DNA of 51,471 nucleotides, from the IMG/VR virus record IMGVR_UViG_3300031857_000279, positions 1-51,471 of that record; one strand, 5' to 3'. This document shows positions 3,988-30,606 of the stretch, piece after piece. This stretch comes from a virus. Position 1 is the first letter of the stretch. The number at the start of each line of letters is the position of its first letter. The translations under genes and the position numbers were made by a program. Under the pieces are notes generated by a model. That model had not been told where the DNA came from, ran no database searches, and worked only from the letters and a program-made list of their open reading frames with translations.

Positions 3988-4187
3988 TATGTTGTATTTG
4001 TAATGAAGAGTTTGATGAGATTGAAGAATTAGTAATAGAAGGTCAATCATTTCAAACACAAGGCGGGCATAATCCTGCACCAGTAAAAGATGAAGGTAGG
4101 TGCTGTACAAAGTGTAATTTCTCTGTAGTAGTACCAGCAAGAGTTAAAGAATTTATTAAAGAAAGAACACCAAATGGGAAAGGTTAG
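3984..4187 (+). CDS. Small zinc-ribbon protein
   Basis: The 67-residue protein has two CxxC knuckles (Cys3-Cys6 and Cys41-Cys44, with extra Cys4 and Cys40) and a GGHNPAPV segment between them, followed by RCCTKCN and a VVVPARV strand. I recognise this layout from many small phage zinc-ribbon proteins of unknown function. It starts in an ATGA overlap with the VWA gene and overlaps the AAA+ gene by 14 bases, so it is locked between the two partners of that cassette. It could be a structural zinc adaptor for the complex, but that is inference from position. Confidence 0.7.
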   Translation: MICCICNEEFDEIEELVIEGQSFQTQGGHNPAPVKDEGRCCTKCNFSVVVPARVKEFIKERTPNGKG

Positions 4188-12163: not shown

Positions 12164-15100
12164 TTATCTTCTAGCCATTGCCATAGCCTGGTAGAATTTC
12201 TGAATTGCATTTGCAGGATCCATAGTACTTCCTGTAAATCCAAGCATTCTTGCAATTTTAGCTTCAATCTTTGCAGCACCTTTCTTTTGGAAATCATAAG
12301 GCCCTACATCACGTGAGTAGTAAGCTCCTTCTTCCCCACGCAAAATTGCAATAGCATCATCAAACATTTGTTGCCATGAGTCTGTAGTAGGGCCAGCAAC
12401 AATTGACTTAAGATCGACCATCTCAAAGTAATTATCAATACCACCAAATCCTAGAATCTTTTCAGGTATAGGTAAGAACTGCTCATTTTCTGCACGTATT
12501 TGAATCATCAAGTTTAGTGCATGTAGCTCTAACCATCCTGCTACATTGAACTGTCTAGATGAATCATCTTCAATTCCAAACCATGGAAGAGCTCCTGATT
12601 TTTTTCTTAGTTTCTTGTATCTTTCTTCATCGTCATCATCTGGGTCCCAACCAAATGCTAAAGCAATAATTGCACTTACAAGTAATAGTAGAGCAAATTC
12701 ACTGAATGTTTTCATCATTGCTCTGGATTCTTCCTTGGTTAAGTATGGAATGTTTTTTCCAAATTGAGTTACTGTATCTTTTAATACTTGGAATGTACGA
12801 ATGTAGTAACCCATATGAGGAGCTCCTAAACCTGGATTAAGTCTAGGCTTTGCATTTGATAAAGGACCTGCAAAACCAAATCTGTTCATAACCATAGGAG
12901 TGAAGTATCTTCTCAAATAAGATATAAATCTAAATGCAATATATCTTTGAGCTTCAGGTTGATCAAACTCAGAGTATGCTCCTTGAAGGTTATTGATTAC
13001 CTGATGGACTCTATTCTTCATCATTGAGAACTCAGCTCCCATTTTAAGATTTCCTTCATCATCATAGGTAATACCCCATTTAGGATCAACACCTTTCTTA
13101 AGAACAATTTGTTTATTCTCATTTAGTTCCCATGCATCGATGTAGTTAATTTTTTTAACTGTGCCATCTTCTTGAGTCTGTTCTACCTTTTGATGATACA
13201 TCATTCCTCCAAATACTTGAAGAGTAGCCTGAAGTTCTAACCATTTACGTGGACTATATAACCATGAACCTTCAACAATATCTTTACTTATAGTACGTGA
13301 CATAGAAGATAATCTAAAGTCATTTTCAAGTCTACCTTGTGCAGGATCAAATATTTGTACTATCTGCTGCGTCAAAGACTTAGGTCCTTTAGTGTAAAGG
13401 TTACCCCCAAAACTTAGATCCATCATTGCCATTCCTGACCAAGCTTCACCTTTAGCAGCACTAAGAAGATTTAAATATTCTCCTGATGATGCTTGAATCA
13501 TTGTTTGAAACTTAGCTCCAAAACCATTCTTTAATGCTGATGGAATGTTTAATGCAAAGAACTGGAATGATGCATTCTTAAATAAGAAGTTTGCAGTATT
13601 ATTTAGTAATCGAGATTCAGAACCAAATCCTTTCATGGTAATTCCTTGAAACTCTCGCTCAATAAAGCTATTTATAGCTCTAGCTCTTATCGTTTGGTCT
13701 TTCTTTTTACGAGGAGGCAATAAGAATCTAGATATCATATTTTTCTTAACCTGTTCTACTACACCACCTCCATTTGCTGGGTCATTAACAACGTCTTGTA
13801 TTGCTTGAGCTAATGGATGTATCTCAATAAGTTTCTTTTGTTTTTCAGCACTAAACATATATCTGTTTAGTCCACTAAGAAGATCTGTTGAAACATTATC
13901 TACTTCAATATCATATAAACCTGCAATAGGAACATCAGATACTTCATCATCAAATGCATCTAGATAAACAAGATTCTTTTCGTTGTCATGGTTAAAGCCT
14001 GACTCAGCATCATCTTTAGCACTTCCAAAGAACTCCTTTAAACGCTTAGTCATTTGTGTGATACCATTATATGCTTTTTCGCCTTTCTCAGATACACTTG
14101 TACTTAATACTGATTCATATCTACCCATGGTGAATCTTGGAAAATCTAAGTATAGTTTATCTCTACTACTTAAACCTACCTGGTTATTCAAATGGTATCT
14201 TGTAGCTTTCTCAAGAACTTTAAATGCTTTAGGATTAGTATCCTTAAACTCAAAATACTTATAGTTAATATATTTATCCCATTCAGGTTGTGTTCTATCT
14301 AGATCTTCTAATCCTTTTGGTAAAAAGTTCCCTCTGTTATCTACTGTCTTACCAACTATCTTTTCATTCTGATACTCAGCTTTTACTTCTTGACGATAGA
14401 ATTTTTGAGCAGGAAGTCCTTGTATGATATCTGTAACTTTACCTGTTCTATCTTTAATCTTAGTAGATTCATAATGATTAGGATCCGTAGGTCTTGTAAC
14501 TGACCAAATACTAATTCGTTTAAATACATCTCCTTCACGTGTTGGATAAGACATATGATTATTATCATACCATTTAGCAAATTCTGGACTTTGTGCTTTA
14601 AGGTTATTTACAATGTTAGGATTTAACATATAATAAGCAGATGATTCATCAATAATCTTAGAGCCTGTTTGTTTCTCAAACTCTGTAGTATCCATAGTAG
14701 ATAAATAATTATTGATTATATCTACATAATATGTAGTTGCATCATTTGAAGAAAGATTACTAAGTTCATTGTACCTTGCATCTAATTCTCTTCTTTGAAG
14801 ATCAGATAACTGACCTATACTTTTCATTTGCCATAAACCTGTAAGTTCTGCTCCTTCTAAGTCTGTAATTACTCCTTCAGACTTTCTAGTTAGTAACTCA
14901 TTAAATCTTTGAGATTGTTCTTTATTTAAACCACTGATACCTCTATAAAGACCTTTACGTCTTTCTATTTCCTCTTCTAAAAATTTAATTTTTGCACGAG
15001 CTTCAATGGTCATTTCTTCAGGATTAGGTTGACCATTTTCATCTCTATATCGATTCTTAATATCAAGAATAGCTTGATGATAAGGTGCCAGATCTAATGC

Positions 15101-17812
15101 TTTTAATCCAGAATCAGGTAGTGAAGATAAAATTTGACTTATTCTATCCAATATTTTTTCTCTCTGTGTATAGAACTCTGGTTTAATTACTACTCGTGTA
15201 TTTTTACGAATCCACTCATCTCTTAATGTCTCATACTCATCACTACCAACTCCATATTTTGAAGCAAGCTCATCTTCATATATATGTAAAAGATTTTGAA
15301 ATACCCCTGGTCTTTGTTTCAATTCAAAAAACTCACGAGACTTATCTCTATACTCTCGTAATCTTTCTGCAATTAATAATTCATCTCCTTGCTTTGTATT
15401 CCCAAATTCGTCATAGAGCGAGTGAATTTGACGATACTCTCTCCATAAAAGATCTATCTCTTTTAATGCTTCTACTTCTTCAGATTGAGTACTGGTTGTA
15501 GCAGAAGCCATTCTTATCCTATCAAGAACTTGATTTCTTCTTTGTTGCGCAATAGCACCAATAGTATCATTAGGAAACTTTTCAAATACTTTCTCTCTCT
15601 CATAGAATTCAGGTACAAATTCTTGATGAAAGTATTTACGCATAAATGTTTTGCGTTCAATAATTGCATTATATAATTTATCAAGAGCTTCAACAGAACC
15701 TGTTTCTGCATACTGTTCTTCAGCATCTGATACTTTTCTATTAAGAACTCGCATGTCATATCTATAATCCTTAAATGGATTTAAGAGAGTCCATATTTTT
15801 TTAGGAACGAGTTGACCATTTTCTTCTTTAGCAATTGTATCTTGGAACATTAATAGTTTACCTAATGCACCAATGTTATGAGCATTATAACCTAATTCTT
15901 TCAAGTCATCACGAATGTCCATATTAAAGGCATTCATTTTAGCTTGAGCATTAACCATCACCTCATTCATTCTATTCTTTACGTATAACGCTAATCCACC
16001 AATTACAGGGTCATTGTTATACATATAACCTTCCATAAAAGAATTAAGCCAATTTGCATCCTTTACATTGTTCTTGAGAAGGTCTTCCATTTTTTCTTTA
16101 GTAAGTTCAAGACCATTGGTTGCTAATAATCTAAGAGATGCATAATCAGCTTTCTCAGATTTATTCATAAACTCACCTTTATTATACTTTTCATTAAGTA
16201 CTTTATATCTATCATGCTCCGCTTGAGATAATCCATAGTATTCTCTATACCACTTATCTATAGTTTTTTGAGGAGCTCCCTTCTTTTTTAATTCAGATAT
16301 AATATGCTCATATCTTTCTTTAACATCTCTAGTAATAGGTTCAAACTCAGCATACAATGTATCTCTAGCCCCATTAGCCATCATTGTATTTGTAAGCTCA
16401 TTAATAGAGTTAAAATGTCCACGTGTCTTGTTAATAACATCGTAGATCTTAGCATTACTAGGTACTCCAGCTTCTGGATCTCTTAGAGCTTTATCTAGAT
16501 CTGTAATGAATGCTTCCCAATACTTAACAATCTTTTGATAATATACAGCCTTCTGAAGATTCTCTTGAGAGTCATGATTCTTATAGATGTCTCTCATGTG
16601 AGCTTCAATCTTAGCTATAATATTCTGAAGATTATAGACAGTATTTACAAGTGCTGTTGACTGATCTTGTAATAACTCCATTTCTTCAACAACACTATTG
16701 ACAATGTTATCAATATCCTTCTGATACTTACTTAGGTCTCCCATAATGGTTTCCATGTCAGGTCTCTTATACTGATCTCTTAGTACAAGAGCAAGTTGAC
16801 GATAGTTTTTATCTTCTTGCAATTGACGTAGCTGACGTGATGCTATTTTATACCCATCACGTATAACATCTTGAATTTTTCTTTTATCAAGATTCTTAAG
16901 CTCATTGATCTCTTGCTGGAATGATTGAGCATAGGCAACTACATCTTCTTCTGTGATTAACTCTGTATTTATTTGAAATTTGTCATTACGCAACATATAT
17001 GCAAGTTGATCAAGTGTAGTATTCTCATCCAACTTACTTACATCAATTTGACCCAATGCATTTCTAAGTATCTTTTTTATTGCAAATAAGATATCCTTAA
17101 TTGCATTAAGAAATGCGGAGCTTTTTTCTTGCTTCATTGCTGCTGTTTCCAAAGCTCTTACGACAACTTCTTCAGCATACATCATATCTCCTGGAGTCAA
17201 CTTAGGATGTGTCGTCGCGAGATCTTCAATTATCTTACGCCCTTCAGGAGTGTTAGCTACTTTATTATATAGATTATTAAATAGAGTAGGATTGTCAACT
17301 TGAATTTGTCTGATTAATGGGTGAGCAAACTCATGTAGTACGTTGTTTAATGATAAGCTTTCACCTACGAAATAAGCTTTACCTCCATGATAAAATGCTG
17401 CTTGGCCTGACCATGGATTTACTGTACCTGATGTTAGCTCTCTTGCACGTTCAGCACTAATAATATCAAATGGTACACCTAAATTATCAGATAACTTTCT
17501 TACAATTTCCATTGCTCGTGTAGTCTGAGCATCTTGTACCATTTGTTTAACAGCAGATTCAGTATCAATTTCTGAAGAGTTAAATACAATCATATTTACT
17601 TCTTCAACACTACCTGACATTATACCTCTTGTGTGAGGAAGTCTAGGAGTGTTTTTCATTGCATTAGTTTCTTGATCTAGTTTAGCTTGAATTTCTTCTA
17701 CAGTTCTAATCTTATAACCAGACTGTACAAAATCTCTATATGCTTGGTATCTACCAAATCTTGCTTCATTTGCTTTCCACTCAGGTAAATTGATATTAGG
17801 ACATACACTCAT
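12164..17812 (-). CDS. Large virion protein with N-terminal zincin domain and C-terminal membrane helix
   Basis: The start is the ATG at 17812, which overlaps the upstream stop as ATGA; an in-frame GTG at 17824 is possible but less likely. The protein has 1882 residues. A zincin domain lies near the N-terminus: VLHEFAHPL (His160-His164) and Glu214 in YAEEVV. The middle (about residues 290-900) is mostly helical, Lys/Glu rich and coiled-coil-like. The C-terminal part has hydrophobic stretches, including FALLLLVSAIIALAFGW (about residues 1700-1716) followed by a run of aspartates. crAss-like phages encode a large protein at this place beside the virion RNA polymerase. Proposed role: virion cargo, with a protease that may process itself or its neighbours. 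The zincin reading is good; the virion location is inference from context. Confidence 0.75.
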   Translation of the reverse strand: MSVCPNINLPEWKANEARFGRYQAYRDFVQSGYKIRTVEEIQAKLDQETNAMKNTPRLPHTRGIMSGSVEEVNMIVFNSSEIDTESAVKQMVQDAQTTRAMEIVRKLSDNLGVPFDIISAERARELTSGTVNPWSGQAAFYHGGKAYFVGESLSLNNVLHEFAHPLIRQIQVDNPTLFNNLYNKVANTPEGRKIIEDLATTHPKLTPGDMMYAEEVVVRALETAAMKQEKSSAFLNAIKDILFAIKKILRNALGQIDVSKLDENTTLDQLAYMLRNDKFQINTELITEEDVVAYAQSFQQEINELKNLDKRKIQDVIRDGYKIASRQLRQLQEDKNYRQLALVLRDQYKRPDMETIMGDLSKYQKDIDNIVNSVVEEMELLQDQSTALVNTVYNLQNIIAKIEAHMRDIYKNHDSQENLQKAVYYQKIVKYWEAFITDLDKALRDPEAGVPSNAKIYDVINKTRGHFNSINELTNTMMANGARDTLYAEFEPITRDVKERYEHIISELKKKGAPQKTIDKWYREYYGLSQAEHDRYKVLNEKYNKGEFMNKSEKADYASLRLLATNGLELTKEKMEDLLKNNVKDANWLNSFMEGYMYNNDPVIGGLALYVKNRMNEVMVNAQAKMNAFNMDIRDDLKELGYNAHNIGALGKLLMFQDTIAKEENGQLVPKKIWTLLNPFKDYRYDMRVLNRKVSDAEEQYAETGSVEALDKLYNAIIERKTFMRKYFHQEFVPEFYEREKVFEKFPNDTIGAIAQQRRNQVLDRIRMASATTSTQSEEVEALKEIDLLWREYRQIHSLYDEFGNTKQGDELLIAERLREYRDKSREFFELKQRPGVFQNLLHIYEDELASKYGVGSDEYETLRDEWIRKNTRVVIKPEFYTQREKILDRISQILSSLPDSGLKALDLAPYHQAILDIKNRYRDENGQPNPEEMTIEARAKIKFLEEEIERRKGLYRGISGLNKEQSQRFNELLTRKSEGVITDLEGAELTGLWQMKSIGQLSDLQRRELDARYNELSNLSSNDATTYYVDIINNYLSTMDTTEFEKQTGSKIIDESSAYYMLNPNIVNNLKAQSPEFAKWYDNNHMSYPTREGDVFKRISIWSVTRPTDPNHYESTKIKDRTGKVTDIIQGLPAQKFYRQEVKAEYQNEKIVGKTVDNRGNFLPKGLEDLDRTQPEWDKYINYKYFEFKDTNPKAFKVLEKATRYHLNNQVGLSSRDKLYLDFPRFTMGRYESVLSTSVSEKGEKAYNGITQMTKRLKEFFGSAKDDAESGFNHDNEKNLVYLDAFDDEVSDVPIAGLYDIEVDNVSTDLLSGLNRYMFSAEKQKKLIEIHPLAQAIQDVVNDPANGGGVVEQVKKNMISRFLLPPRKKKDQTIRARAINSFIEREFQGITMKGFGSESRLLNNTANFLFKNASFQFFALNIPSALKNGFGAKFQTMIQASSGEYLNLLSAAKGEAWSGMAMMDLSFGGNLYTKGPKSLTQQIVQIFDPAQGRLENDFRLSSMSRTISKDIVEGSWLYSPRKWLELQATLQVFGGMMYHQKVEQTQEDGTVKKINYIDAWELNENKQIVLKKGVDPKWGITYDDEGNLKMGAEFSMMKNRVHQVINNLQGAYSEFDQPEAQRYIAFRFISYLRRYFTPMVMNRFGFAGPLSNAKPRLNPGLGAPHMGYYIRTFQVLKDTVTQFGKNIPYLTKEESRAMMKTFSEFALLLLVSAIIALAFGWDPDDDDEERYKKLRKKSGALPWFGIEDDSSRQFNVAGWLELHALNLMIQIRAENEQFLPIPEKILGFGGIDNYFEMVDLKSIVAGPTTDSWQQMFDDAIAILRGEEGAYYSRDVGPYDFQKKGAAKIEAKIARMLGFTGSTMDPANAIQKFYQAMAMARR

Positions 17813-20800
17813 AGTAAGAAACACTTTTTCATTAATTCAACAATATCTTCTTCAGTTGCAGGTTGTTTAGTAGCTGCAACAATAGCTGGCACACCTTCTG
17901 CTTCTTTAACAAAGTTAGGGTTTACAAAACCTACTTCCAATAATCTATTGGATAAATATTTGAATGTCTCATAAGCTACAACCTTACCTACTTTTTCTTG
18001 AGTTACAAAACCTCCCATATACACCTTACCTGTATCATCACTAGCTCCAATCATATATTGTCCATATCCTGAGTTATTGAAAATAGGTGTGTACCCTTGA
18101 TCTATCATAAGCTTAATTGAATCAATCATTTTATCAATTGCTTCTACAGCTTCAGCATTAGGTTTTCTTACATTATTAATATAATCATAATCATCTTCAA
18201 AATATTCTTTCAAAGTACCGCCTGAATATCTTTTACGTGTAGGAATACCTATCTTGAGATTAAATTGACCATACTTTATAAATCTATCTTTAATTAATAC
18301 TTTCTGACCTGTTGAGCTTGTTCCTGGACTACTGTCTTGTTCTATAGTGTCCATACCTGTTAAAACGTCATTGAATACAATAAATCTTTTTTTACTTTCT
18401 AATAATTCTTCAATGTCTTCTTCCATACTTAAGAAATCATTATATAAATTATCTGTAAGAGGAACTATATCTCCTGTATTACTATCTAATACATACAATT
18501 CTGATATAGGAAGACCGTTTGCATCTTTTGAATAACTCAAAACTTCCATAATTAATCCTGGAGGAATTTTGTTATCAACTTTTGCTTGTTGCATTTCTGC
18601 AAATGTTTTAAACACTAATGAAGGATCAGATGCTCTTTTTTTATCTGAAGGTAATATCATTGTTGACAGAGAACTTTGTCCATCAGAAACATTATATCTT
18701 CCTTTAAAAACATCACCTAAGATAGTACCATTGGCATCTACAACAAATATTTTATTTTCTCGATTTTTTCTACTTATAATTGTAGCATTTACGAGATACC
18801 TATTTGTACCAACTGGATTTTTTCTTTGGTCATACATATAACCAATGTCCTTAATGTTATTTATTGAAACTGTTATAAGTTCTGTAATTGATTTCCCACC
18901 TGAAGTATAAGAATATATACCATCTACATTATCTCCAGCTGTAGTATAAACTCTATCTTCACCAATAAGTTCCTTTATGAAATATTTAGATAATTGAAGA
19001 TCTGTTGTAACACTACGAGTTCTTGTAAAATTATCTGGTGTATTCTTATCAGCTTTATATGCTATACGTAGTTCTCCTTTTAGATCATACAAAAGTTTTA
19101 TTTTATCACCTGTTGTAGCATCAAAAGTTATATTAATAAATCCATTCTCATATGATATATTAGATACAGTAGTTTTATAAGCATATGGTGTTTTATTATT
19201 AGGATATTGTATCGATATAGATAGATCATCTCCTAAAGATACATATCCATTAGAAGGTAATCCATTTGATTGAACATATGCTGGATCGAATAATGCTTCT
19301 TTAGGATTAATACTACTATTTATAATTCTTATATCTTCTAAATTTAAAGCTGGTTCACCATCTTTAGTTCTATCAATAATATAATTTTTACCACGAGAAT
19401 CATATCGCTTATTAGCTGCTACAAACGCATTGAATGTTTCATTTAATGTTTTATATCTTCCAGTTGTTAATAATGATTCTTTTTGAATTTTTTCAATAAA
19501 AGACTCTACCCATGTCTGAGACATAATTCTTATAGTATTTTCATCTACAATTCTATTAAGTGCAAATCTACCGTGAGGCTCCATTCCTGATTGTAAAAAT
19601 GCTACAATAGGTAATTTTTTAAATGTACTTTCAATCTCTCTAATCTGACTTGGTGTAAGCCCTAAACTTCTTGTAGCATTTAAACGTGTCAAGTATGCAC
19701 TATTACTTAAATGTGCAACTTGTTCATAGTAGGAGTTAATAGTTTGTGTATCATTAACAGATTCAACAAATGCTAAATTAATTCTATTTTGACCTTCCCT
19801 TGCTGTCTCAGCATCAGCAGTAAGATTTTGAAATATACTAAACTCTTTTACTAATTTACTATATATAGGATCATCTATATACTTTGTAACTTCAAAAGCA
19901 TATGCCGTATCTGTTCCATTAAATAAAGCTCGCATATTATAAATTTCAATCAGAGCTTTATTTGTAATATAACGTTCAAATGCAATGCGTTTTCTAATCT
20001 TATTTATATCTTTTTTATCTACTCCTTCTACAGCCTTAGCTCTTGATAAACTTTCTTTGTACAAAGAGTTTGCTTTAGGATCAGTAACAAAAAGATCATC
20101 AATAACTTTTTTACCGCCTAATTCAGCAAAAGTTGCTCTAATATATTCTCTTTCAAATACATACTTAACATACTCACCAAAAGTACGAAACTGATCTTCA
20201 GGAAGAGTTTCAAATTTTAATTCTCCACCATAGTTTTCTTTAGCATATTCTTTATTAACGAATTGATTATATAATGTATTATAATCAAAGTAAATTGTCA
20301 TTTCTCCATTTTCCATTTTAGCAACTGCTCCTCCTGAAGGTAAAGCAATAACAGATTCTAATTTAACTTCTGCATCTCTATACGTTACTGGTTCAGTTTC
20401 TAAATCAATTGACATAAGTTTTCTTACATCAAATGTTAAAAATTCATTCTGAAAAATAATAGGAATAAGTGCGTTTTTAAATCCTGTTGTTACCTCTTCA
20501 TCATCACTCATCCATGTATTATTGCGAGCCTTATCTTTTTCAATAAATCCTAGACTATCAATAAAATTATTTATAACAGGGTTGCTCTTAAGTGGGAATA
20601 AAGGACTCCACATATAATTTTGAATAGGCTGTACGTAAAAAGATCCAATAGGAGATTGAATAGCAGTTTCGTCAAGATTACCCGTATCTCTAACAGTTCC
20701 TTTAGAATCTTTTGTTTTAATAGTAGGTACGATCTTCTCAATAATTTGAGAAGGCACTCTCCAATATTTATTTTGTGAAGATATATCACCATCTTCTTTT

Positions 20801-23800
20801 GTTTTTGTTCTCTTTAATTCTTTAAGTTGAGATATTTTTGTTTGAGCATTATTAAGAGTTTTAGAAGGTGTTGTATCAAAGTTTGTTTTCATCTTAACAT
20901 CCCTGATACTATCCTGCATTTCAGATATTTGTAAAAAATGAATAAGCAATTGTTTTTGCATATTATTAATTTTTTCATCTGAATAATCAATATTTCTATC
21001 TGACATTTTTACTTTACCATTTTTTTCATATGGCTGATATTTATCAAATATGTAATTTATTTGTCCCTTTAATTCATCAAGATTAAATGTTTCATTTTCA
21101 GGTTGTATAAAGAAATTTTCTTCAGCTAAAAGCTTATTTAATTTTTCACTATCGCTTTTTCCTTTATACTTATCTAAACTATATCCTAATTTTTGTAGCA
21201 TTATTTTCTTAGCCATAAGCTTAGCTTGATTTCTAGTAACTCCTGTTACTCCTTCAAACTTCATTAGCTGACCAAATTGACTTTGTAGTTTAGATAGTGT
21301 TTCCATATATTCTACTATTATTGGTTGCCCAATAAATGATACTACATATTCAATAGGTACACCTGCTTGTACTAAAAACAAAAGATGTGGAGCTAATTGC
21401 GCATTACCTCTTAAGTAATATATCCATGGTTCTTTTGCAGCATCTAACCAACCATTTTCTAGCTGTGATAATACATCCGCAATTTGATTTTGACCAAACA
21501 CATCTGTTGTATGAGATAAACTGATTGCTAAATCTTTATAATTATTACCCGCTGAGTCCTTAACTTTCATTTTGTTATGAGGAACATATAAGGTTTGTCT
21601 TTGGAATGTTTGTAATAATTGTATTGGATCTATGTTATATTTAGTTTTATAATCTTTTAAATCGTCTTTTACTTTTTTATATTCTACTTCTTCTTCAGGA
21701 GTTAAGAAATATTGTTTTCTGTCTTCTTCAGATTTAAATAGTTTTTTATCAACCTGGACATATTGTAATTTATTATTTGCAGCATAAGTCTCACGTCTTA
21801 ATTTTTTCTCAGAATATATATTTTCAATTGCACGATTTCTTTTTGCAAGAGCAATTGCTTCTTGTACTTCTGGACTATTAAATTCTAATCCATTTGCAAA
21901 TTCTCTGTTATTTGGAGTCATGTACATACCTACTCTGTTAAAGATTTCATTATAGGTAATATCAATTGCACCAATTCCTACTCCTTCTTTTGAACTGTTG
22001 TTAGTATAATGTTTAAACAAGTTATAAATTGGTTCATAAATTCTAGACACCTGAATCTCTTTATCTATACTTTCATCATTAGTAGATATTTTAGGTGTAT
22101 ATCCTTTAAATTTAGTTTTTGCCTCATCTGCTAAAGGTTCTAAAATATCAATAGAGTTAGGACGTACAAGGTTAATGTATGCAGAAGGAGATTTAAGTAT
22201 ATCAATCATTGCGAACATGACATCATTTTGTGCAGATTTTTCAAGATCAGTTAAGGCAAACTCCTCATATGTAAGAGCTTCTCCTTCTGTTATCATATCG
22301 TTTATTGTACTTTCAATAATGTCACCTTTAGTTATGAGCTGCATTAATTCTAACGCTCTCTTTTTATCAGAACTATTTTTGTATTCATTTCCAAGTAAAG
22401 CATATTCTGCCTGAGCTTTTTTATATTTCTCATATTTAGCACGTAACTCTTTATCATCTATTTCTTTGTATAAACCAACTTTAGTAGTTTTAATACCTTG
22501 ATCATCTATGGTAACTTGCTTTTTAATATTTGGAAACTGTAATGTTAATTTATCAATATCAAAGTCACCTCCTGACTGAGCAACTATTTCTGCAGGAAGA
22601 ATAATAATATTACCTGCTTCTTTTGGTAAGAACTGATATACTTCTGCAAATACAGTAGCATTTTCAGATTGAGTAGGAATACGTACACCAAACGCAGAAA
22701 TAAGACTACGATTTTCTCCTTTATTTAACCATTCCTCATTTCTAATGAGTTCGTTTAATTTTTTTAATGATGCATTGTAATCTAATACTTTTACAATTTT
22801 TCCAGGTATACTCCCTTCTTTTGCTTTTATTTTTACTTTACTTAAGTCAGGTATAAATTCGTCTTTGTAAACAGCAACCTCATCTAAATACAACAATTTT
22901 TCATAGTCACCCTGCATGGCAATTTTAATTTTCATTGCCTCAATATTTTGACCACCTTGTCTTAATCTAAAGAAAGTTAAACCATTAGTGCCTCCATATT
23001 CTTTTAGTTGTTCCTCTGTTGGATTAGTAAACTGAGGTTCTTCTTCGAGCATGGCTCCTGATACCTGAATTAAAGGTTCACCAGTTACTTTCTGTTTCAC
23101 AAGTGATTTAGTAACTAATGCATTTAATACAGATTCAATCAACTCTGAAGACAGGGAGTACGATAAATCAGCTGCTATCTTATCTCCATCAAGTTTTATA
23201 AAATCCAATTCATGATCAGCAAGATCTTCTTTGGATAATTGTGTTTTAATAAATTCAACAAGATTCTCAAGATTACCATCTATTTGTCCTGTTTTTGGAT
23301 CATACTTAAGTTTTGCTTTACTAAATAACTGTTGACGTTTAATAAAGCTTAATCTATGTACTGCAGTTTCATATGCAATAAGTTTTCTAAAGTTTTCTGA
23401 TTCTTTAATTTTATCAGATTGTTTTAGTTTATTCCAAGATTCTAGTCGTGATTCAAATTCATCATTAGGTTTGTAATCTGTTGGAATACCGTTTTCCATT
23501 AAACCTGTTTCAATAATCTTACGTATCTGAGTAGGGAAGGTATTTTTTCCTTTGAATTTAGGAGCTATTTTAAGCTGGTTCTTAAGATATTTTACAAAGA
23601 TTGTATTTACTGTAAATGGTACATCTTCATTAATATTACGAGTATCATTATCATATATATTATCAGCTTCACCAACAAGTTCATCATTCTCATTTAGTTT
23701 AGCAGATTGCATATTACCCATCTTAGATCCTGACTGAAATACAGAATAATCAATACCTTCTTTCATCATCTTTTCAGATAATGCTTTAAGTTTAGGTGTT

Positions 23801-26800
23801 GATTCAAGTAGGGTAGGCACCATCGGTGTTAATTGAAACTTATGAAAAGCATCTATTCTAAATGCATCTGTCATAAGAGGTCCCCAATATTGAGCTTTAA
23901 TAGGAGGAAAAAATAAACTAACTTTTCCTTGATCTATTTCTTTACCAGCAAGCATATCATCATAAAGTTTTTGATGTACTGGTGTCCACTCACCTTGAGA
24001 AAATGCAAGAGCTCTATATGCATCCATAGTTATCCAACCTTGAGCATCTGCTTCAGTCATTTTAAAATAGTTAAACATTACACTCTTTTTATCAGGAGTA
24101 ACATCCTTTAAAGAGTTAATGTCTTTTATCTTTAAATTTTTATGAGACTTACCAAAAAGTTTTATTTTAATTTCTTCATCAATTTCTTTTTCAGATCTTT
24201 TAAATGTATCAGATAATCTATTATTTGCACGCATTGCTTTTTCTTTATCTTGTACATAAAGATTATATCCTATCTCATCCCAATAAATACTTTTTGTAAT
24301 CTTATCTTTTATAACAGCAGTAGCCAGTGTACCATCATATGCTCGTCCAGGTTTTAATCCTGCTGCTAATCTATATTGATTTTCAAATTGCCTGCCACCT
24401 AATGTGTTATTAATAGTATATAACATATCTTCATCTACACGATAACCAGAACCTGTAGAGGCAAGACCAGCATTACGTTTATGGAAATCTTCTTTTGCGT
24501 GGTCATAAGATGCAGGATCACCATACAAGATATTCATTGATTCAATGTTATGTATCCAACTATTAATCGTATAAGATCTTAGAATAGCATCTTCCCATAA
24601 ATCACGGTTGCCTAGTTCGTTTTTATATCGACCTTTGTCTTTCTTTACTGCTTGATCATAAAGATTTTTTATAAGGTTATCAGCTAGTACGCTACCGCTA
24701 TCTTCATATGTAATCTTTGTTTGATTAAACAAAGTATTATGAAAATATACATTTGTTTCTTGAGTAATTTTTAAATCTAATGCAGGATCAGTTTTTAAGA
24801 AATCTTGCAAAGTTATTTTTATAGGTTCTACTCCTGCTGCTAGTTGCTCTTCTGTATACTTTTCAAATGCGTCTAGTAATTCTTGTTTTGTTTTACTATT
24901 TAATATACCTTGAAAAGACAAAAATTTCTGTCCTTGTTTTAAATAAGAGATATCAAATACTGGTGTTGGTTCAACTTTACCACCTTTCTTTTTTTGTTCT
25001 CTGATTCTTTTAAGTGTATCTACAATTTCTTTTTCTTTCTTTTTAAGACCAACAATTCTAGATAATTCTATATTTAAATTAGGAATAATAAAGTTATTAT
25101 AGAGCACACTATGATATGATGCTTTATCATTAAGAAATGCAATTGTCGGCATATACAACGCACCTCTACTCCAATCTGTAAATTCGTCCCCTAGAGGTTC
25201 CTTAATATTTAATGTAACACTATATGATGTGCTTTTATCAGAGTGTCTCATTAGTTCAGGTAATCCTACTTGAGTCATTAAGTGTACATCTAAAATAAAC
25301 TTGGTGAATTGATCAGCTTTAGCTGAAGCAACTCCATCTCTTCCATCTACTTTAACACCACTAATATTATGAAGTACTAAAGCTACTTTAACCCCATTTA
25401 CAATTTTTCTTTTACCATAGTTTTCATTATCCTTGTCTAGATAATACATATTTTTCAACCATGCATAATTTTTTGCTGCAGGATTAAACTCATAATGTAA
25501 ATGTCTTAAGTGTGGTAACTTTAAAAAATCATCATAAAATTCAACATTATTAATGTCAGTAACCATTACTGACATTGTACTATTTAATGAATGCTCAAAC
25601 TGTGTATTACCATCAGCTGTTGTAGCCATAAATGTTGGAACACCTGATCCAAACTGACCTTCAACTAACTGCAAAGTACTCCAGTTACTCATTTCTCCTT
25701 TCAGCATAGGCATAATATATACTTCAGTACCTATTTTAACAGAAAGATTCTTTCTATCTGGAAATAAATCTGAAGGACGCTGAATTATAATATTAGGATC
25801 ATTAGCTAAAATTTCTAAGTAAGAAGGAAACTCACTATTTTTTAATGATCCTAATGTTGGATCTAAATCTCTTAAATCAAGAAATCTATTTGAAAAAAAT
25901 GTTTTTAATATATTAAAGTCTGACGGTACTTCAAAATCAGGATTTCCATTCTGTAATGCATCGATCACCTCTTTATTACCTGTAAGATTAATACCTAGTG
26001 CACTTAAAAAATCTAATGCTTCTTGCGGATCTATTTTTCTACTTTTTTGAACTTTATTTTTTAATGATGCAAAATCTTTTACTATTTGTTTTAAATCAAG
26101 TTGAGGAACTCCATCTATAACGATTTTATACTTATTAGTTGATTTTGGGAAATCACTATTCCACTTTTTACCAACTCGTGCATTAGCATTAATACCACTA
26201 CCAATTCTAGATTCAAAAGTCATAACACCTTTATCTTCTACAATTGTAGCAGTCATTGCCTTAAGTGCAATACGTCTATTAGAAAAGATACTCCAAAAGC
26301 TTGTCCATAAATTTTCCGCATCTATATCTTGTAAATGTTTATGCTTTGATCTATCTAGACCTTTAGGACCTAACTTATTCATAAGCTGAGCAACAGCATA
26401 TGTCATTTCAGTTTTTTCTTCAGAAGCGGCAAATTTTGCAAGCTTGGCATACATCTCTGCAGGGTCTAAAGTATTCTCTAAAATTAGTGCTACTTTACTC
26501 CATAGGTCTCTAAAATCCATTATTTCAGGAGCACCCAATGAGTTCATATAGGGAATGCCTGTTTCTGGATTTATCCTGAATACACTTCTAAATAAAAATT
26601 TAACCTCTGCTCTTTCTTTTGCTAAATCAACAAGACTTTGCTCATTACCTGATCTATCCGCATACGGACTCCTAGAGTTAGATTCTTCTTGATCTATTGC
26701 GTCAAGACCTTCTATGGCAGCACCACCAAATGCTGGAGAATTAGCAATATGATATGCAATAACTCCTTTGAACGTACCATCTTCTGATTGAACATTTGCA

Positions 26801-29800
26801 TCTAAATTATTGATATCCCCAAAGTTAGTATATGACCAATAAAGAATTTTAGCTTGTTCTTCTAAAGCTGCTAATTGATTTTGCTCAGCTGGAGTTCTAT
26901 CTGTTTTATTTTTTAGTTCTTCACGTTTATTATATACCTCATTATATGATCTACCTAATATGTTATATACTTGTTTATATAAATTATGACGACCAGCTTT
27001 ACTTCTTAATTTACGCGCTAGCTTTCCATAATTAAGTTCTTTTGCAAGCATTAATCGTCTAGCTTCTATTTGAGATGTAGTCTTTTCTCCAGATACATAT
27101 GCTTGAATAGATTCATTAAAGAATTCCAAAGCTTTTGATTCCGATAATTGTGTAGCTTCAACAGATAATACTTGTGCCATCCAACTATCAATAGACGACA
27201 TAAGTAAATCAGCTTGCATATTATTTAAATAAGGCATCTTCTTATTAATAGGAAGATCTTCATTTACTGCTTGAGGACCTTTGTATAGTACATCAAATCC
27301 TTGGTTCATATTATCTACGCTAAATCTATATGTACTTAAATCACCTTTAGGATCACTTAATTTATTATAGATATCTTCAATGAACTCATTAGCTCTATCG
27401 TTAGCTGTCATATCACTAATCTGATACTTGCCAAATAAAGCTTTAAGTTTATTATATAACCATTCAAAGAAGCTAGCAATTTTAGGAGATGATTTATCTA
27501 ATGAGCCTTTCTTAGCTCCAGCAAGCATCCACTTTCTAAATCCTTCAGCTAAATATTCTTCAGCTTCTTTATTTGTAGCATCTGCAAAGTTTTTAGTCTG
27601 ACCTTTATACGTAATAAATGTTCCTGATTTTTGTTTAACATTATCATATAGTTCTTTACGCTGAGCAGGAGTCATGAACGCTTGAGTGAATCCATGGAAT
27701 GCTTCATGATAAAGATCTGTAAGATTTGAACCTTTAAATAGAATAATTCCATTACGTGTCCATTGTGCAATAGAATCTGGATTACGCTCATTTACTAGAT
27801 TATACGCTTCTTCAAATGTAAAGACTTTACTAATTGGACTACTTTCATACCACTCTTTAGCTTCTTTAAGTTGTTGAGCAGTAATTTTTTCAGAGTTATC
27901 AATTTGTATCTGACGTTTATAATGAATGTCGTCATCTTCTTCCTCTTCTTCTGTAGGTTTAATTTCACCTCCTGTAGCTTCTATACCACTAATTAAACTA
28001 TCAGTCTCAGCAATCTCATCATCTGTTAAGGTAACTTCTGCTGTAGACACTTCAATTACTTCTTCAGGTACAGGTATATATTCTTCATCAGTAGTTTCAG
28101 GAAGGACATCTATTTGTTCTCCTGAAAAAGTAATTGAATCCATTAACTTTTGTATAGAAGTAATATGTGTTTTCTTTAGAGCAGCAATTTTAATTAACTC
28201 ATCAAGAATTTCTTGTACTTCTTCTTTTGTACGCGCATTATAGTTACCTTTCTTTAAGTTATTGATAAAGATATCTGCAGCTGTTTTTGCAAGAGATTGA
28301 GTAGGAGTTTTAATCCTTCCTGCAAACTCCGTTATTTTAAATGCTGCCTTTTGAGCATAAGACATTCCCTTCCATTCTTCAGCTGCTTTAGGATTACTTT
28401 GATCTAAAACTTTATCAACAGCATCTTTTACAGGTTCTTTTTTAACTGCAATAGATCTATAATTAAGAGGAGTAAAAGTGAGATAAGGATTTAACGTCAC
28501 AAGTTCGTTATTCCCATTAAGATACTTATCTATTAAAAAGTTTTCAAATACGTAGTCACTAATATAACCATCAGCAATAGTAGATAAAACAAATTTACCT
28601 GTATCATCTTTATTTAATTCTATAAATGGTACAGTGCCTGTTTCATTTTCTTTTAAGTCCCATACCTTTTTGGCAATATATAATCCAGGATAATTTAATA
28701 ATTGATATATACCATCTGTTTCTAATATATCTCCTTGTTTAATTGCAGGATCATTTTTATCCTTATATATTTTTGCACCCTTTTCTTGTCTTTCATTTAC
28801 TTGTTCAGATGATAATGTTTCTGAAGCAAATACACTATTAAATATTTTTAAAATTTTTTCTTTAGCCGCAGCTTTAGCTTGATCAGTACTTAAATCTGTT
28901 GCTTCATTATATATTAATAAAGAACCTCCTTTAACATCTAAACTTGCTTTAAATAATGGACTGAAGTATAAAAAGTTTTCTAAAAGAGTTTTTTTAGAAC
29001 TTAAAGGCATTGGGCTTCCTGAACGAAAAAATACATCATTTACTAATAAATCCGCAAAAAGCTCCATCAATTTAGGATTAGATCGAACTTCAGGATTAAA
29101 TAATGTAATTGGAGTATCCGATATACTTGGAATAGTTATTTGATAGATGTTACCTTCTCCTTTTGAGATAGTAAAGGGTGCATTATTTAAATTTAGTTTA
29201 GATAAAGTATATTTTTCTTTTTGAGAAGGTAAATATCCTAAAGATCCTCCTGTTATATCTAACATAACAGTATTAGTTTTAGGAGACAGCATTACATGAT
29301 TTATAATGTTATTAACTGTTTTTTTCTCATCTAACAATCTTTCGATTGCTTCTTCTTCAGACACTCCAGAAATTGCTACTATCGCTTTTACTCGTTTTCT
29401 TTCATACTCTGCAGTAATATCAAATGGCACATTGATATTAAAGAATGCAATATTACCATTAGGACTTACATTTCCTGCATCATCAAACCTAACAGGATTT
29501 CCAGCTGCATCTACTACAACTGCAACTACATCTGATGTATTTCTAGAACTTTTAGGATTTTTATCTGTTAATAATCTTTCATCAGGTATTGTACCCTTAC
29601 TTTGAGCACGTAGATAAATTTTACCAACACCTGGATAATTAATTTCAGATCCTGCTTTACCTCCATTTAATAGTCTTAAGATATTTCTTTTAACTGCAAA
29701 ATGTATTGTTCTTTTGGGGTCAGTATCTTTTATATTATAATTGGGGTCTTTAGGATCATCTGAAATAGCTTCTTGAGCTGTATCTTTTAATGCTGTATCA

Positions 29801-30606
29801 GCTAATGCTTCAAATCTTTTACCTTTATAAGGAGTTACTGTTTCTCCCTCAGTATCAAGTTGTTCTTCTAAAGCAGCTAGTTCTGCATTATAATCTTCTT
29901 TTAATTTTAATAACTCTTTATCTCTAGCTTCTGCAAGATTATTTTTATATCTAGCTTTACCAGCTTTATTTATTTTTTTATTATAATCAGCTGTTATTTC
30001 TGCTACTTTTTTATTGTAATTATTAAGCAATTCAGCTTTCTTATCAGTAGTAGGTTCTACATCATCTGTTACATCTACTACTTCAGGAGCTCCTGTTTTA
30101 GGATCTACACCTACATCAATTACACCTGATGTTGTGGTACCTGGATCTAATTTTTTACCCTTGTTAGCTTTTTTACTTTTCTCATCAATTATAGACTGTG
30201 TGCTATTAACTGTTTCTTGTGCATCTTTAATTTCTCCTTTAAGATCTTTTACTAATCCTAATCTATTTTCAATAAATTCAATACCACTATCAGGATTCAT
30301 AGCTGAACTTGCAAGCAATGCAGTTACTGTAGGATCAAATCCTTTAGCCATCATAGCACCAATATTCTGCATATCCTTACCAGCAATATTATATATTGCA
30401 GTAGGAACCATACGAGCAAAGCGAATAGCTAATTCATGATCACCTTTTTTAGCAAGTACATCATTATACATGTTTCTCATGATATCGTCAATTTTAATTG
30501 ACGAATCAGGATTAGACATGAGTGTACTGATTTCTGATGCTAGGTATTTGTATAGCTTAATGTATACTGAATAGTTTTTGTCATCTTTACTTAAAGAACA
30601 AATCAT
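17809..30606 (-). CDS. Giant crAss-like virion RNA polymerase polyprotein (DFDID motif) with zincin domain
   Basis: The protein has 4265 residues, far above ordinary phage polymerases. The catalytic region contains GVRIPTQ (Arg near 2642), a FLPKEAGNIIILPAE segment and GGDFDIDKL with Asp2681, Asp2683 and Asp2685. Those match the metal-binding motif of the single-chain, double-psi beta-barrel polymerase of crAss-like phages (phi14:2 gp66 type), a distant relative of cellular beta/beta' polymerases. Other blocks include LYGDPASYDHAKEDFHKR (near 2029) and FQSGSKMG (near 2292). An N-terminal coiled coil (about 190-260) and a zincin domain with LYHEAFH (His967-His971) and Glu1021 precede it. The virion enzyme is injected and transcribes early genes. 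This is 22 bases downstream of the 1593-residue gene and overlaps the next by ATGA. The polymerase reading is strong; domain borders are not. Confidence 0.88.
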   Translation of the reverse strand: MICSLSKDDKNYSVYIKLYKYLASEISTLMSNPDSSIKIDDIMRNMYNDVLAKKGDHELAIRFARMVPTAIYNIAGKDMQNIGAMMAKGFDPTVTALLASSAMNPDSGIEFIENRLGLVKDLKGEIKDAQETVNSTQSIIDEKSKKANKGKKLDPGTTTSGVIDVGVDPKTGAPEVVDVTDDVEPTTDKKAELLNNYNKKVAEITADYNKKINKAGKARYKNNLAEARDKELLKLKEDYNAELAALEEQLDTEGETVTPYKGKRFEALADTALKDTAQEAISDDPKDPNYNIKDTDPKRTIHFAVKRNILRLLNGGKAGSEINYPGVGKIYLRAQSKGTIPDERLLTDKNPKSSRNTSDVVAVVVDAAGNPVRFDDAGNVSPNGNIAFFNINVPFDITAEYERKRVKAIVAISGVSEEEAIERLLDEKKTVNNIINHVMLSPKTNTVMLDITGGSLGYLPSQKEKYTLSKLNLNNAPFTISKGEGNIYQITIPSISDTPITLFNPEVRSNPKLMELFADLLVNDVFFRSGSPMPLSSKKTLLENFLYFSPLFKASLDVKGGSLLIYNEATDLSTDQAKAAAKEKILKIFNSVFASETLSSEQVNERQEKGAKIYKDKNDPAIKQGDILETDGIYQLLNYPGLYIAKKVWDLKENETGTVPFIELNKDDTGKFVLSTIADGYISDYVFENFLIDKYLNGNNELVTLNPYLTFTPLNYRSIAVKKEPVKDAVDKVLDQSNPKAAEEWKGMSYAQKAAFKITEFAGRIKTPTQSLAKTAADIFINNLKKGNYNARTKEEVQEILDELIKIAALKKTHITSIQKLMDSITFSGEQIDVLPETTDEEYIPVPEEVIEVSTAEVTLTDDEIAETDSLISGIEATGGEIKPTEEEEEDDDIHYKRQIQIDNSEKITAQQLKEAKEWYESSPISKVFTFEEAYNLVNERNPDSIAQWTRNGIILFKGSNLTDLYHEAFHGFTQAFMTPAQRKELYDNVKQKSGTFITYKGQTKNFADATNKEAEEYLAEGFRKWMLAGAKKGSLDKSSPKIASFFEWLYNKLKALFGKYQISDMTANDRANEFIEDIYNKLSDPKGDLSTYRFSVDNMNQGFDVLYKGPQAVNEDLPINKKMPYLNNMQADLLMSSIDSWMAQVLSVEATQLSESKALEFFNESIQAYVSGEKTTSQIEARRLMLAKELNYGKLARKLRSKAGRHNLYKQVYNILGRSYNEVYNKREELKNKTDRTPAEQNQLAALEEQAKILYWSYTNFGDINNLDANVQSEDGTFKGVIAYHIANSPAFGGAAIEGLDAIDQEESNSRSPYADRSGNEQSLVDLAKERAEVKFLFRSVFRINPETGIPYMNSLGAPEIMDFRDLWSKVALILENTLDPAEMYAKLAKFAASEEKTEMTYAVAQLMNKLGPKGLDRSKHKHLQDIDAENLWTSFWSIFSNRRIALKAMTATIVEDKGVMTFESRIGSGINANARVGKKWNSDFPKSTNKYKIVIDGVPQLDLKQIVKDFASLKNKVQKSRKIDPQEALDFLSALGINLTGNKEVIDALQNGNPDFEVPSDFNILKTFFSNRFLDLRDLDPTLGSLKNSEFPSYLEILANDPNIIIQRPSDLFPDRKNLSVKIGTEVYIMPMLKGEMSNWSTLQLVEGQFGSGVPTFMATTADGNTQFEHSLNSTMSVMVTDINNVEFYDDFLKLPHLRHLHYEFNPAAKNYAWLKNMYYLDKDNENYGKRKIVNGVKVALVLHNISGVKVDGRDGVASAKADQFTKFILDVHLMTQVGLPELMRHSDKSTSYSVTLNIKEPLGDEFTDWSRGALYMPTIAFLNDKASYHSVLYNNFIIPNLNIELSRIVGLKKKEKEIVDTLKRIREQKKKGGKVEPTPVFDISYLKQGQKFLSFQGILNSKTKQELLDAFEKYTEEQLAAGVEPIKITLQDFLKTDPALDLKITQETNVYFHNTLFNQTKITYEDSGSVLADNLIKNLYDQAVKKDKGRYKNELGNRDLWEDAILRSYTINSWIHNIESMNILYGDPASYDHAKEDFHKRNAGLASTGSGYRVDEDMLYTINNTLGGRQFENQYRLAAGLKPGRAYDGTLATAVIKDKITKSIYWDEIGYNLYVQDKEKAMRANNRLSDTFKRSEKEIDEEIKIKLFGKSHKNLKIKDINSLKDVTPDKKSVMFNYFKMTEADAQGWITMDAYRALAFSQGEWTPVHQKLYDDMLAGKEIDQGKVSLFFPPIKAQYWGPLMTDAFRIDAFHKFQLTPMVPTLLESTPKLKALSEKMMKEGIDYSVFQSGSKMGNMQSAKLNENDELVGEADNIYDNDTRNINEDVPFTVNTIFVKYLKNQLKIAPKFKGKNTFPTQIRKIIETGLMENGIPTDYKPNDEFESRLESWNKLKQSDKIKESENFRKLIAYETAVHRLSFIKRQQLFSKAKLKYDPKTGQIDGNLENLVEFIKTQLSKEDLADHELDFIKLDGDKIAADLSYSLSSELIESVLNALVTKSLVKQKVTGEPLIQVSGAMLEEEPQFTNPTEEQLKEYGGTNGLTFFRLRQGGQNIEAMKIKIAMQGDYEKLLYLDEVAVYKDEFIPDLSKVKIKAKEGSIPGKIVKVLDYNASLKKLNELIRNEEWLNKGENRSLISAFGVRIPTQSENATVFAEVYQFLPKEAGNIIILPAEIVAQSGGDFDIDKLTLQFPNIKKQVTIDDQGIKTTKVGLYKEIDDKELRAKYEKYKKAQAEYALLGNEYKNSSDKKRALELMQLITKGDIIESTINDMITEGEALTYEEFALTDLEKSAQNDVMFAMIDILKSPSAYINLVRPNSIDILEPLADEAKTKFKGYTPKISTNDESIDKEIQVSRIYEPIYNLFKHYTNNSSKEGVGIGAIDITYNEIFNRVGMYMTPNNREFANGLEFNSPEVQEAIALAKRNRAIENIYSEKKLRRETYAANNKLQYVQVDKKLFKSEEDRKQYFLTPEEEVEYKKVKDDLKDYKTKYNIDPIQLLQTFQRQTLYVPHNKMKVKDSAGNNYKDLAISLSHTTDVFGQNQIADVLSQLENGWLDAAKEPWIYYLRGNAQLAPHLLFLVQAGVPIEYVVSFIGQPIIVEYMETLSKLQSQFGQLMKFEGVTGVTRNQAKLMAKKIMLQKLGYSLDKYKGKSDSEKLNKLLAEENFFIQPENETFNLDELKGQINYIFDKYQPYEKNGKVKMSDRNIDYSDEKINNMQKQLLIHFLQISEMQDSIRDVKMKTNFDTTPSKTLNNAQTKISQLKELKRTKTKEDGDISSQNKYWRVPSQIIEKIVPTIKTKDSKGTVRDTGNLDETAIQSPIGSFYVQPIQNYMWSPLFPLKSNPVINNFIDSLGFIEKDKARNNTWMSDDEEVTTGFKNALIPIIFQNEFLTFDVRKLMSIDLETEPVTYRDAEVKLESVIALPSGGAVAKMENGEMTIYFDYNTLYNQFVNKEYAKENYGGELKFETLPEDQFRTFGEYVKYVFEREYIRATFAELGGKKVIDDLFVTDPKANSLYKESLSRAKAVEGVDKKDINKIRKRIAFERYITNKALIEIYNMRALFNGTDTAYAFEVTKYIDDPIYSKLVKEFSIFQNLTADAETAREGQNRINLAFVESVNDTQTINSYYEQVAHLSNSAYLTRLNATRSLGLTPSQIREIESTFKKLPIVAFLQSGMEPHGRFALNRIVDENTIRIMSQTWVESFIEKIQKESLLTTGRYKTLNETFNAFVAANKRYDSRGKNYIIDRTKDGEPALNLEDIRIINSSINPKEALFDPAYVQSNGLPSNGYVSLGDDLSISIQYPNNKTPYAYKTTVSNISYENGFINITFDATTGDKIKLLYDLKGELRIAYKADKNTPDNFTRTRSVTTDLQLSKYFIKELIGEDRVYTTAGDNVDGIYSYTSGGKSITELITVSINNIKDIGYMYDQRKNPVGTNRYLVNATIISRKNRENKIFVVDANGTILGDVFKGRYNVSDGQSSLSTMILPSDKKRASDPSLVFKTFAEMQQAKVDNKIPPGLIMEVLSYSKDANGLPISELYVLDSNTGDIVPLTDNLYNDFLSMEEDIEELLESKKRFIVFNDVLTGMDTIEQDSSPGTSSTGQKVLIKDRFIKYGQFNLKIGIPTRKRYSGGTLKEYFEDDYDYINNVRKPNAEAVEAIDKMIDSIKLMIDQGYTPIFNNSGYGQYMIGASDDTGKVYMGGFVTQEKVGKVVAYETFKYLSNRLLEVGFVNPNFVKEAEGVPAIVAATKQPATEEDIVELMKKCFLL

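Follow-up and report, generated by a model that had tools for sequence, protein, structure and literature searches.

Zincin-like domains flanking the virion RNA polymerase of a crAss-like phage, and single cysteines where its cargo chains meet

Phages have to pass proteins several thousand residues long through a narrow tail, in order and functional beyond it, and adjacent giant open reading frames (ORFs) in IMGVR_UViG_3300031857_000279, a 51,471-base virus fragment analysed over its whole length and called the window below, bear on how this is done. A first-pass annotation had reported an HExxH motif in two of them, HEAFH at residues 967-971 of a 4265-residue ORF and HEFAH at residues 160-164 of an 1882-residue ORF, and both were found exactly as described. 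The chance expectation of HExxH from composition is 0.02 per ORF, and we regard both motifs as real. They lie in two zincin-like domains, zincin-1 and zincin-2, which would amount to two conserved catalytic sites beside the polymerase of a very abundant phage group with cultured members. The window was identified as a crAss-like phage because a 1467-residue protein (46638-51041) matches the 'muzzle'-type tail structural proteins of phi17:2 and csAssE-Sib, and because the 4265-residue ORF, which carries GGDFDIDK, matched the catalytic RNA polymerase subunit of phi14:2 and the RNA polymerase (RNAP) proteins of other Crassvirales by tblastn. Three chains of the cargo region, assigned by hhalign, are concerned:

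30629..35410, complementary strand: 1593-residue chain, N-terminal half of gp47
17809..30606, complementary strand: 4265-residue chain, C-terminal half of gp47 (residues 16-1145), zincin-1 and virion RNA polymerase (residues 1205-3725)
22549..22572, complementary strand: GGDFDIDK, catalytic DxDxD motif of the virion RNA polymerase
12164..17824, complementary strand: 1882-residue chain, orthologue of gp49 and phi14:2 g065, with zincin-2 near its N-terminus

The family profile of the 4265-residue chain aligned over residues 16-1145 with gp47 of ΦcrAss001 (PhicrAss001; crAss001 below), positions 1292-2324 (P 95), and over residues 1205-3725 with positions 221-2204 of gp50 (P 99.8), while phi14:2 gp66 matched residues 1079-3734 of the same family (P 100, E 1.6e-45). 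Residues 1-1209 of the 1593-residue ORF aligned with gp47 3-1232 (P 96). The 1882-residue chain, whose ORF has an ATG start at 17812 and a GTG 4 codons upstream, aligned with crAss001 gp49 (P 98.7), phi14:2 g065 (P 97.5) and the C-terminal half of p-crAssphage gp44 (P 98.6). Read from these alignments, the gene order of the cargo is the N-terminal half of gp47; the C-terminal half of gp47, zincin-1 and the polymerase in one chain; then zincin-2 and gp49. Zincin-1 closes the gp47 part and zincin-2 opens the gp49 part, with the RNA polymerase between them, and the DxDxD motif together with the homology to phi14:2 gp66 assigns the 4265-residue chain to the virion RNA polymerases of Crassvirales. 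The gp47, gp50 and gp49 proteins of crAss001 and g067, g066 and g065 of phi14:2 are direct orthologues of the three window chains, but their gene breaks lie at other positions. In crAss001 the gp47, gp49 and gp50 orthologues are virion proteins (PMC10172136), and those of phi14:2 were detected by virion proteomics according to the annotation of the sequence record. Crassvirus cargo is stored in the capsid and passes tail-barrel constrictions of <50 Å partly unfolded (PMC10172136).

Which residues make up the two putative active sites was determined from alignments of relatives, and the following features are needed:

27277..27906, complementary strand: zincin-1 domain, residues 901-1110 (35-sequence alignment; AlphaFold2 (AF2) core with predicted local distance difference test (pLDDT) 82-94)
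27694..27708, complementary strand: HEAFH of zincin-1, residues 967-971
27556..27561, complementary strand: Glu1016-Glu1017, invariant, probable third-ligand site (alignments, profile alignment)
27544-27546, complementary strand: Glu1021, the zincin-1 ligand of the first-pass annotation, probably second shell
27007..27156, complementary strand: variable linker (residues 1151-1200) from zincin-1 to the polymerase, the gp47/gp50 fusion joint and a candidate cut region
17000..17572, complementary strand: zincin-2 domain (alignment; AF2 mean pLDDT 90.5; viral structure-library matches)
17321..17335, complementary strand: HEFAH of zincin-2, residues 160-164 counted from the ATG
17168..17170, complementary strand: Glu215, invariant in zincin-2, probable third ligand (alignments)
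17171-17173, complementary strand: Glu214, the zincin-2 ligand of the first-pass annotation

Related loci were drawn from IMG/VR by protein pattern, and 35 zincin-1 and 52 zincin-2 sequences were aligned; the conservation of HEFAH in this first set of zincin-2 sequences is partly due to the pattern used to find them. Invariant among the 52 were H80, E81, F82, H84 and E135 of the domain, corresponding to His160, Glu161, Phe162, His164 and Glu215, and the position of Glu214 varied, with R, N, A, K, Q, D or S in some relatives. Zincin-1 kept HE..H, Glu1016, Glu1017, Ala1020 and Glu1021 in all 35 sequences; in a wider set Glu1021 was once Asp, and Glu1016 and Glu1017 were still invariant. An alignment of the two family profiles (hhalign probability 90, E 1.4e-6) paired Glu1016-Glu1017 with Glu214-Glu215 and also aligned the strands preceding the motif, a likeness that had been proposed from the window alone. 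The third ligands named at that stage, Glu1021 and Glu214, are probably misassigned, as Glu214 varies among relatives and the profile alignment does not pair it with Glu1021. Glu215 is the probable third ligand of zincin-2, and the pair Glu1016-Glu1017 the probable third-ligand site of zincin-1. From Glu1017 to Glu1021 the sequence reads ExxxE, similar to the ExxxD/E of gluzincins, whose leading acid is a zinc ligand and whose other acid supports a His. The equal spacing from motif to Glu, which had been taken as a shared feature, also disappears, since the aligned residues give 50 in zincin-1 and 55 in zincin-2; in zincin-1 relatives the first Glu of the pair follows the first His at a distance of 38, 39, 44, 45, 49, 52, 54, 57, 61 or 66. 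The common spacing of 54 was a coincidence that followed from the choice of Glu1021.

The two domains had been read as one duplicated metalloprotease. Aligned directly, the window's own copies scored 28 against a shuffle mean of 29, no better than shuffles, and homology became visible only with family profiles, which scored 45.0 by hhalign against at most 24.7 and 18.5 for 26 decoy windows cut from these proteins. The proposal stood in so far as both domains are zincin-like, belong to giant phage proteins and are homologous at the superfamily level. A third class of zincins, seen in further crassvirus cargo proteins (phi14:2 g065, L011, L022, cr53_1, cr4_1, cr10_1 twice, Fpv1), scored 57.6 with zincin-1 and 40.5 with zincin-2. 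As zincin-1 is nearer to this class than to zincin-2, the two domains do not form a closest pair. The data give no support for a specific duplication, and the domains are two distantly related members of a wide superfamily.

The AF2 model of zincin-2 (pLDDT 90.5) begins with a helix (4-31) and strands 35-38, 59-62 and 65-69, followed by helix 75-93 with H80-H84 and helix 130-145 with the invariant Glu135. For zincin-1 the model was confident only around the motif helices, with H67-H71 in helix 64-77 and the conserved Glu116, Glu117 and Glu121 (domain numbering) in helix 112-128; two strands precede the motif at low confidence. The metallopeptidase (MPTase) domains of polyvalent proteins consist of a helix, three strands, the HExxH helix and a Glu helix (PMC5512222). 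In the models HExxH falls on the first of two C-terminal core helices in both zincins, and a helix followed by a three-stranded sheet is seen in zincin-2. Curated family models gave no convincing zincin match in Pfam and none in NCBIfam or PHROGs, a search of PDB sequences gave no usable family, and Foldseek against PDB matched neither zincin-1 nor zincin-2 to a solved zincin. Matches to the lethal-factor family (Pfam E 0.09, 0.7) and to clostridial neurotoxin chains (Foldseek E 3.6, 5.4) were at noise level and were discarded. Zincin-2 did match giant phage proteins in BFVD, with a best E of 1.4e-5 and a TMq of 0.62-0.70 for the two leading matches; some of the weaker matches are named polyvalent. 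The resemblance extends to setting, as the polyvalent-protein MPTases, including that of the N4 virion RNA polymerase (vRNAP), combine an HExxH helix and a later Glu helix in giant proteins delivered with phage DNA (PMC5512222). In N4 the polymerase belongs to the T7 type and the MPTase lies C-terminal to it (PMC5512222), whereas the window polymerase belongs to the two-barrel crassvirus type, which is unrelated, and has a zincin immediately next to it at both ends.

Since the first zincin-2 set had been partly selected by motif, the survey was repeated with the polymerase catalytic region as anchor, which leaves it unbiased by HExxH. Zincin-1 was present in 63 of 63 polymerase-anchored loci with >6.5 kb of upstream sequence, in 62 of them within the polymerase ORF, and HE[ASG][WFY]H was intact in all 73 copies detected in such loci. 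It is the best conserved block outside the polymerase core and lies between two variable linkers, column occupancy in the linker at 1151-1200 being 0.38 compared with 0.85-0.94 on the zincin side. It is found at the C-terminal end of crAss001 gp47 (HEAFH, E 2e-11) as well as inside the fused gp47-polymerase chains of Suoliviridae, in each case as the last domain before the polymerase, and it is intact in nearly all chains with a fused joint (the window clade; cr108_1, cr10_1, cr118_1, cr6_1, cr53_1, cr4_1). In cr6_1, cr53_1 and cr4_1 (L186, L187, L192) the giant polymerase ORFs are open only with TAG read as an amino acid, and zincin-1 is then intact. The gp45 protein of p-crAssphage (BK010471), annotated as 'putative RNAP associated protein fused to zincin protease', has its zincin at the C-terminal end before the polymerase, as zincin-1 does, but it is a separate gene not fused to the polymerase, and it is too distant for a direct match by hidden Markov model (HMM), giving a weak hhalign signal at the expected place. 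No zincin-1 was found in DAC15 or phi14:2, where the gp47/polymerase joint is already open. The presence of a zincin tracks fusion of the joint only partly, as zincin-1 is kept at some open joints. L006 was considered as a natural split between zincin-1 and the polymerase and rejected, because its near twin L005 has one open chain and assembly frameshifts are likelier. In DAC15 gp61 (L190 28288-34956), a gp47 orthologue, a PD-(D/E)XK nuclease-like end was seen by eye at the place of the crAss001 zincin-1.

When a locus has zincin-2, the domain is close to the start of the chain that follows the polymerase. It was detected in 58 loci (E <1e-6), 57 of them with HExxH, and was not found or was degenerate in about a quarter. 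The first His is missing in gp49 of gut Steigviridae (EEFAH in crAss001, cr112_1 and cr128_1; SEECAH in cr108_1) and in L165 and L149, where the domain is still recognisable; cr118_1 has no HExxH at the zincin-2 place, nor has p-crAssphage gp44, and phi14:2 g065 holds a third-class zincin, unlike the 1882-residue chain of the window. Retention of the motif in zincin-1 and its loss in zincin-2 indicate stronger selection on zincin-1, apparently as an enzyme, and much less on zincin-2. With every candidate catalytic residue kept in essentially all relatives, zincin-1 is very probably catalytically active. Zincin-2 is not always present and, to judge from the residues it has lost, dead in some lineages. 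Such losses suit the proposal that the zincins are structural, that is, folds needed for packaging or threading of the cargo, with catalysis secondary or lost: zincin-2 remains recognisable without its first His in crAss001, cr112_1, cr128_1, cr108_1, cr118_1, L165 and L149, and the region of N4 vRNAP that holds the MPTase is needed for encapsidation of a protein packaged uncut (PMC5512222). We consider it unlikely for the pair, as in every relative recovered zincin-1 still has its catalytic Glu and the full set of candidate ligands, which a domain with a structural role only would not need.

Our best guess for the role of zincin-1, offered tentatively and with somewhat less than even confidence, is release of the polymerase after entry. 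The partly unfolded cargo would be pushed through the tail and refold in the host, and the zincins would act then, as has been suggested for other polyvalent proteins that enter with phage DNA. Zincin-1 would cut a flanking variable linker, the nearest being residues 1151-1200 at the gp47/polymerase joint; low occupancy at the fusion joint just after zincin-1 makes this linker the first candidate cut site. The cut would detach the polymerase from the remainder of the string. Zincin-2 would serve as a helper on the other side of the polymerase, and facing cysteines at the gene breaks (described below) could keep the pieces linked as far as the reducing cytoplasm. Domains of the MPTase type have been proposed to process the polyvalent protein, either before packaging (P1 DdrB) or after delivery, or to attack host proteins (PMC5512222).

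Several observations weigh against this release model. Zincin-1 is intact at the open gp47/polymerase joint of crAss001, cr112_1, cr128_1 and probably p-crAssphage, so cutting that joint cannot be its sole job. The p-crAssphage gp44, a fused polymerase-gp49, lacks HExxH, as do all these cargo chains in ProJPt-Bp1 and DAC15, and the cut site in these chains is a candidate only. Reducing gels of crAss001 virions include bands near 150 and 270 kDa (PMC6235969), and the full sizes are 154.5 kDa for gp49, 262.5 for gp47 and 276.9 for gp50 (PMC10172136). By size alone these bands would correspond to gp49 and to gp47/gp50 at near full length.

The intact zincin-1 of crAss001, cr112_1 and cr128_1, where no joint needs cutting, would be expected if the zincins were injected effectors that cut host proteins of defence, transcription or the membrane, adjacency to the polymerase only ensuring their delivery. 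Zincin classes are also gained and lost between lineages, zincin-2 being missing or dead in many and the third class present in others, and attack on host proteins is one role offered for such domains (PMC5512222). We nevertheless find the effector explanation doubtful, as zincin-1 is near-universal and fixed beside the polymerase in >60 diverse loci, unlike a fast-changing effector.

The near full-length bands also bear on the version of the first-pass annotation, in which a single maturation protease, duplicated, would cut the giant chains while the virion is assembled. The superfamily-level homology and the location in giant chains agree with it, and cutting ahead of packaging has a precedent in P1 DdrB (PMC5512222), but zincin-1 and zincin-2 are not each other's closest relatives, the bands reported for crAss001 lie near full-length gp49 and gp47/gp50, and N4 vRNAP, which has an MPTase domain, is packaged uncut (reviewed in PMC5512222). 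We hold it to be quite improbable. By analogy with N4 and crAss001, cutting during virion maturation appears disfavoured, and cutting by zincin-1 after injection, as the release model has it, is plausible.

The zincins of this cargo would on these comparisons be a variation on the MPTase-like domains already described, and the more surprising result concerns cysteines that mark the breaks between the chains:

30632-30634, complementary strand: codon of the last residue of the 1593-residue chain, its sole cysteine
30598..30600, complementary strand: Cys3 of the 4265-residue chain, facing the end of the 1593-residue chain
17821..17823, complementary strand: Cys4262 of the 4265-residue chain, facing the start of the 1882-residue chain
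17801..17803, complementary strand: Cys4 of the 1882-residue chain (ATG numbering), its sole cysteine

Residues 3 and 4262 are the only cysteines of the 4265-residue chain, and exactly two were found in 51 of 56 complete polymerase-chain relatives. Terminal cysteines were counted in 112 non-identical polymerase loci, taking the last 10 residues as the C-terminal end and the first 13 as the N-terminal end. The polymerase chain had a cysteine at its C-terminal end in 108/108 cases and at its N-terminal end in 58/60, with 11 cysteines in the 356,099 interior residues. The gp49-like chain had one at its N-terminal end in 99/99 cases and in its last 10 residues in only 4/69, and the upstream chain in its last 10 residues in 50/53. 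After clustering at 50% identity the counts were 22/22 (polymerase C-terminal end), 7/8 (polymerase N-terminal end), 19/19 (gp49 N-terminal end) and 5/7 (upstream C-terminal end). Of the three exceptions among the upstream chains, L140 has a split polymerase ORF with a 4-base overlap and no cysteine, L022 has its cysteine 18 residues from the end of the upstream chain, and in L023 both the polymerase chain start and the upstream chain end lack one. The C1/C2 cargo and muzzle proteins have no terminal cysteine apart from one p-crAssphage protein (near the C-terminal end) and one cr6_1 protein (at residue 10). An outlier to the rule is an 857-residue cargo-region protein of p-crAssphage (L007 703-3276), which ends in SCR and has no obvious partner cysteine on the next chain.

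From lineage to lineage the cysteine pair moves with the position of the gene break, and fused joints have none, which is the strongest point for linkage. The window clade has the pair at the break in mid-gp47 and none at the fused gp47/polymerase joint, and crAss001 has the reverse, with cysteines at the C-terminal end of gp47, both ends of gp50 and the N-terminal end of gp49, a pattern shared by phi14:2, cr112_1, cr128_1 and DAC15. The residues are gp47 Cys2339, gp50 Cys5 and Cys2404 and gp49 Cys5 in crAss001, and g067 Cys1797, g066 Cys3 and Cys2179 and g065 Cys3 in phi14:2. In p-crAssphage they occur at the C-terminal end of gp45 and only at the N-terminal end of the fused gp44. In cr118_1, cr6_1, cr53_1, cr4_1 and ProJPt-Bp1 a cysteine is seen at the C-terminal end only of the chain that precedes gp49 and at the N-terminal end of the gp49-like chain, and three chains of one gene block in phi17:2 obey the rule. 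An interruption that creates no true protein end goes without the pair: the cr108_1 polymerase is split by a group I intron (Rfam E 1.4e-20), and neither flanking end has a cysteine. This intron (L101 21790-22108) lies within the codons of the active-site motif, between GSD and YDIDK, and the two halves are annotated as separate genes.

The rule is read from the sequences themselves; one disulfide per break is its simplest reading, predicting head-to-tail linkage, and the bond and its role are inferred. Taken further, the cargo would be a split polyprotein, with disulfides from the gp47 C-terminal end to the polymerase N-terminal end and from the polymerase C-terminal end to the gp49 N-terminal end, threaded through the tail in order and reduced in the cytoplasm, where the zincins would release polymerase still joined by peptide bonds. 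We judge this proposal evenly balanced between right and wrong. If true, it would yield one nearly cysteine-free string of about 5,400-7,700 residues. Disulfides do occur elsewhere in crAss001 virions (PMC10172136). Shared zinc binding by the terminal cysteines, or thiol attachment to a third partner, are candidate alternatives. A cause at the DNA level was ruled out, since both TGT and TGC are used and, in crAss001, gp47 and its partner are encoded on different strands. A cysteine switch masking the zincin zinc was rejected because the cysteines are present in DAC15, whose cargo chains have no HExxH, and in phi14:2, which has neither zincin-1 nor zincin-2, and self-cyclisation of the polymerase through its two cysteines would leave the single cysteines of its neighbours and the losses at fused joints unexplained.

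N4-like virion RNA polymerases are cysteine-free, which has been ascribed to passage through the tail and periplasm (PMC3715699, PMC3915230, PMC2784036). The window chain resembles them as a giant, presumably injected polymerase depleted of cysteine, but the N4 enzymes are single chains with none at all, whereas the window cargo has one cysteine at each end that faces a neighbour. Terminal cysteines are not mentioned in the literature covered on such cargo, the phi14:2 polymerase paper of Drobysheva et al. being outside that scope; within it we also found no earlier description of one polyprotein rebuilt from several genes, which is what the rule would mean if it reflects linkage. Facing cysteines were also observed in the cyanobacterial Leptolyngbya phage Lbo-JY46 (L009, L010), where a chain of ~1552 residues ends in Cys and a 2748-residue chain, in which no polymerase homology was found, has Cys4. 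This phage shares a muzzle-like protein, a zincin-2 relative and a second HExxH domain.

Other HExxH proteins were seen in the window and its relatives. The tail proteins phi14:2 g070 (L008 7093-8871) and one of phi17:2 (L104 26197-28431) each have two HExxH motifs of other types. In the window, 2800-3987 and 4174-5364 on the forward strand encode a vWA protein with an N-terminal DUF2201_N peptidase domain (HELMH, residue 72) beside an AAA ATPase. This pair brings a third metallopeptidase to the window and resembles the MoxR-vWA-peptidase pair of some jumbo phages (PMC7824862).

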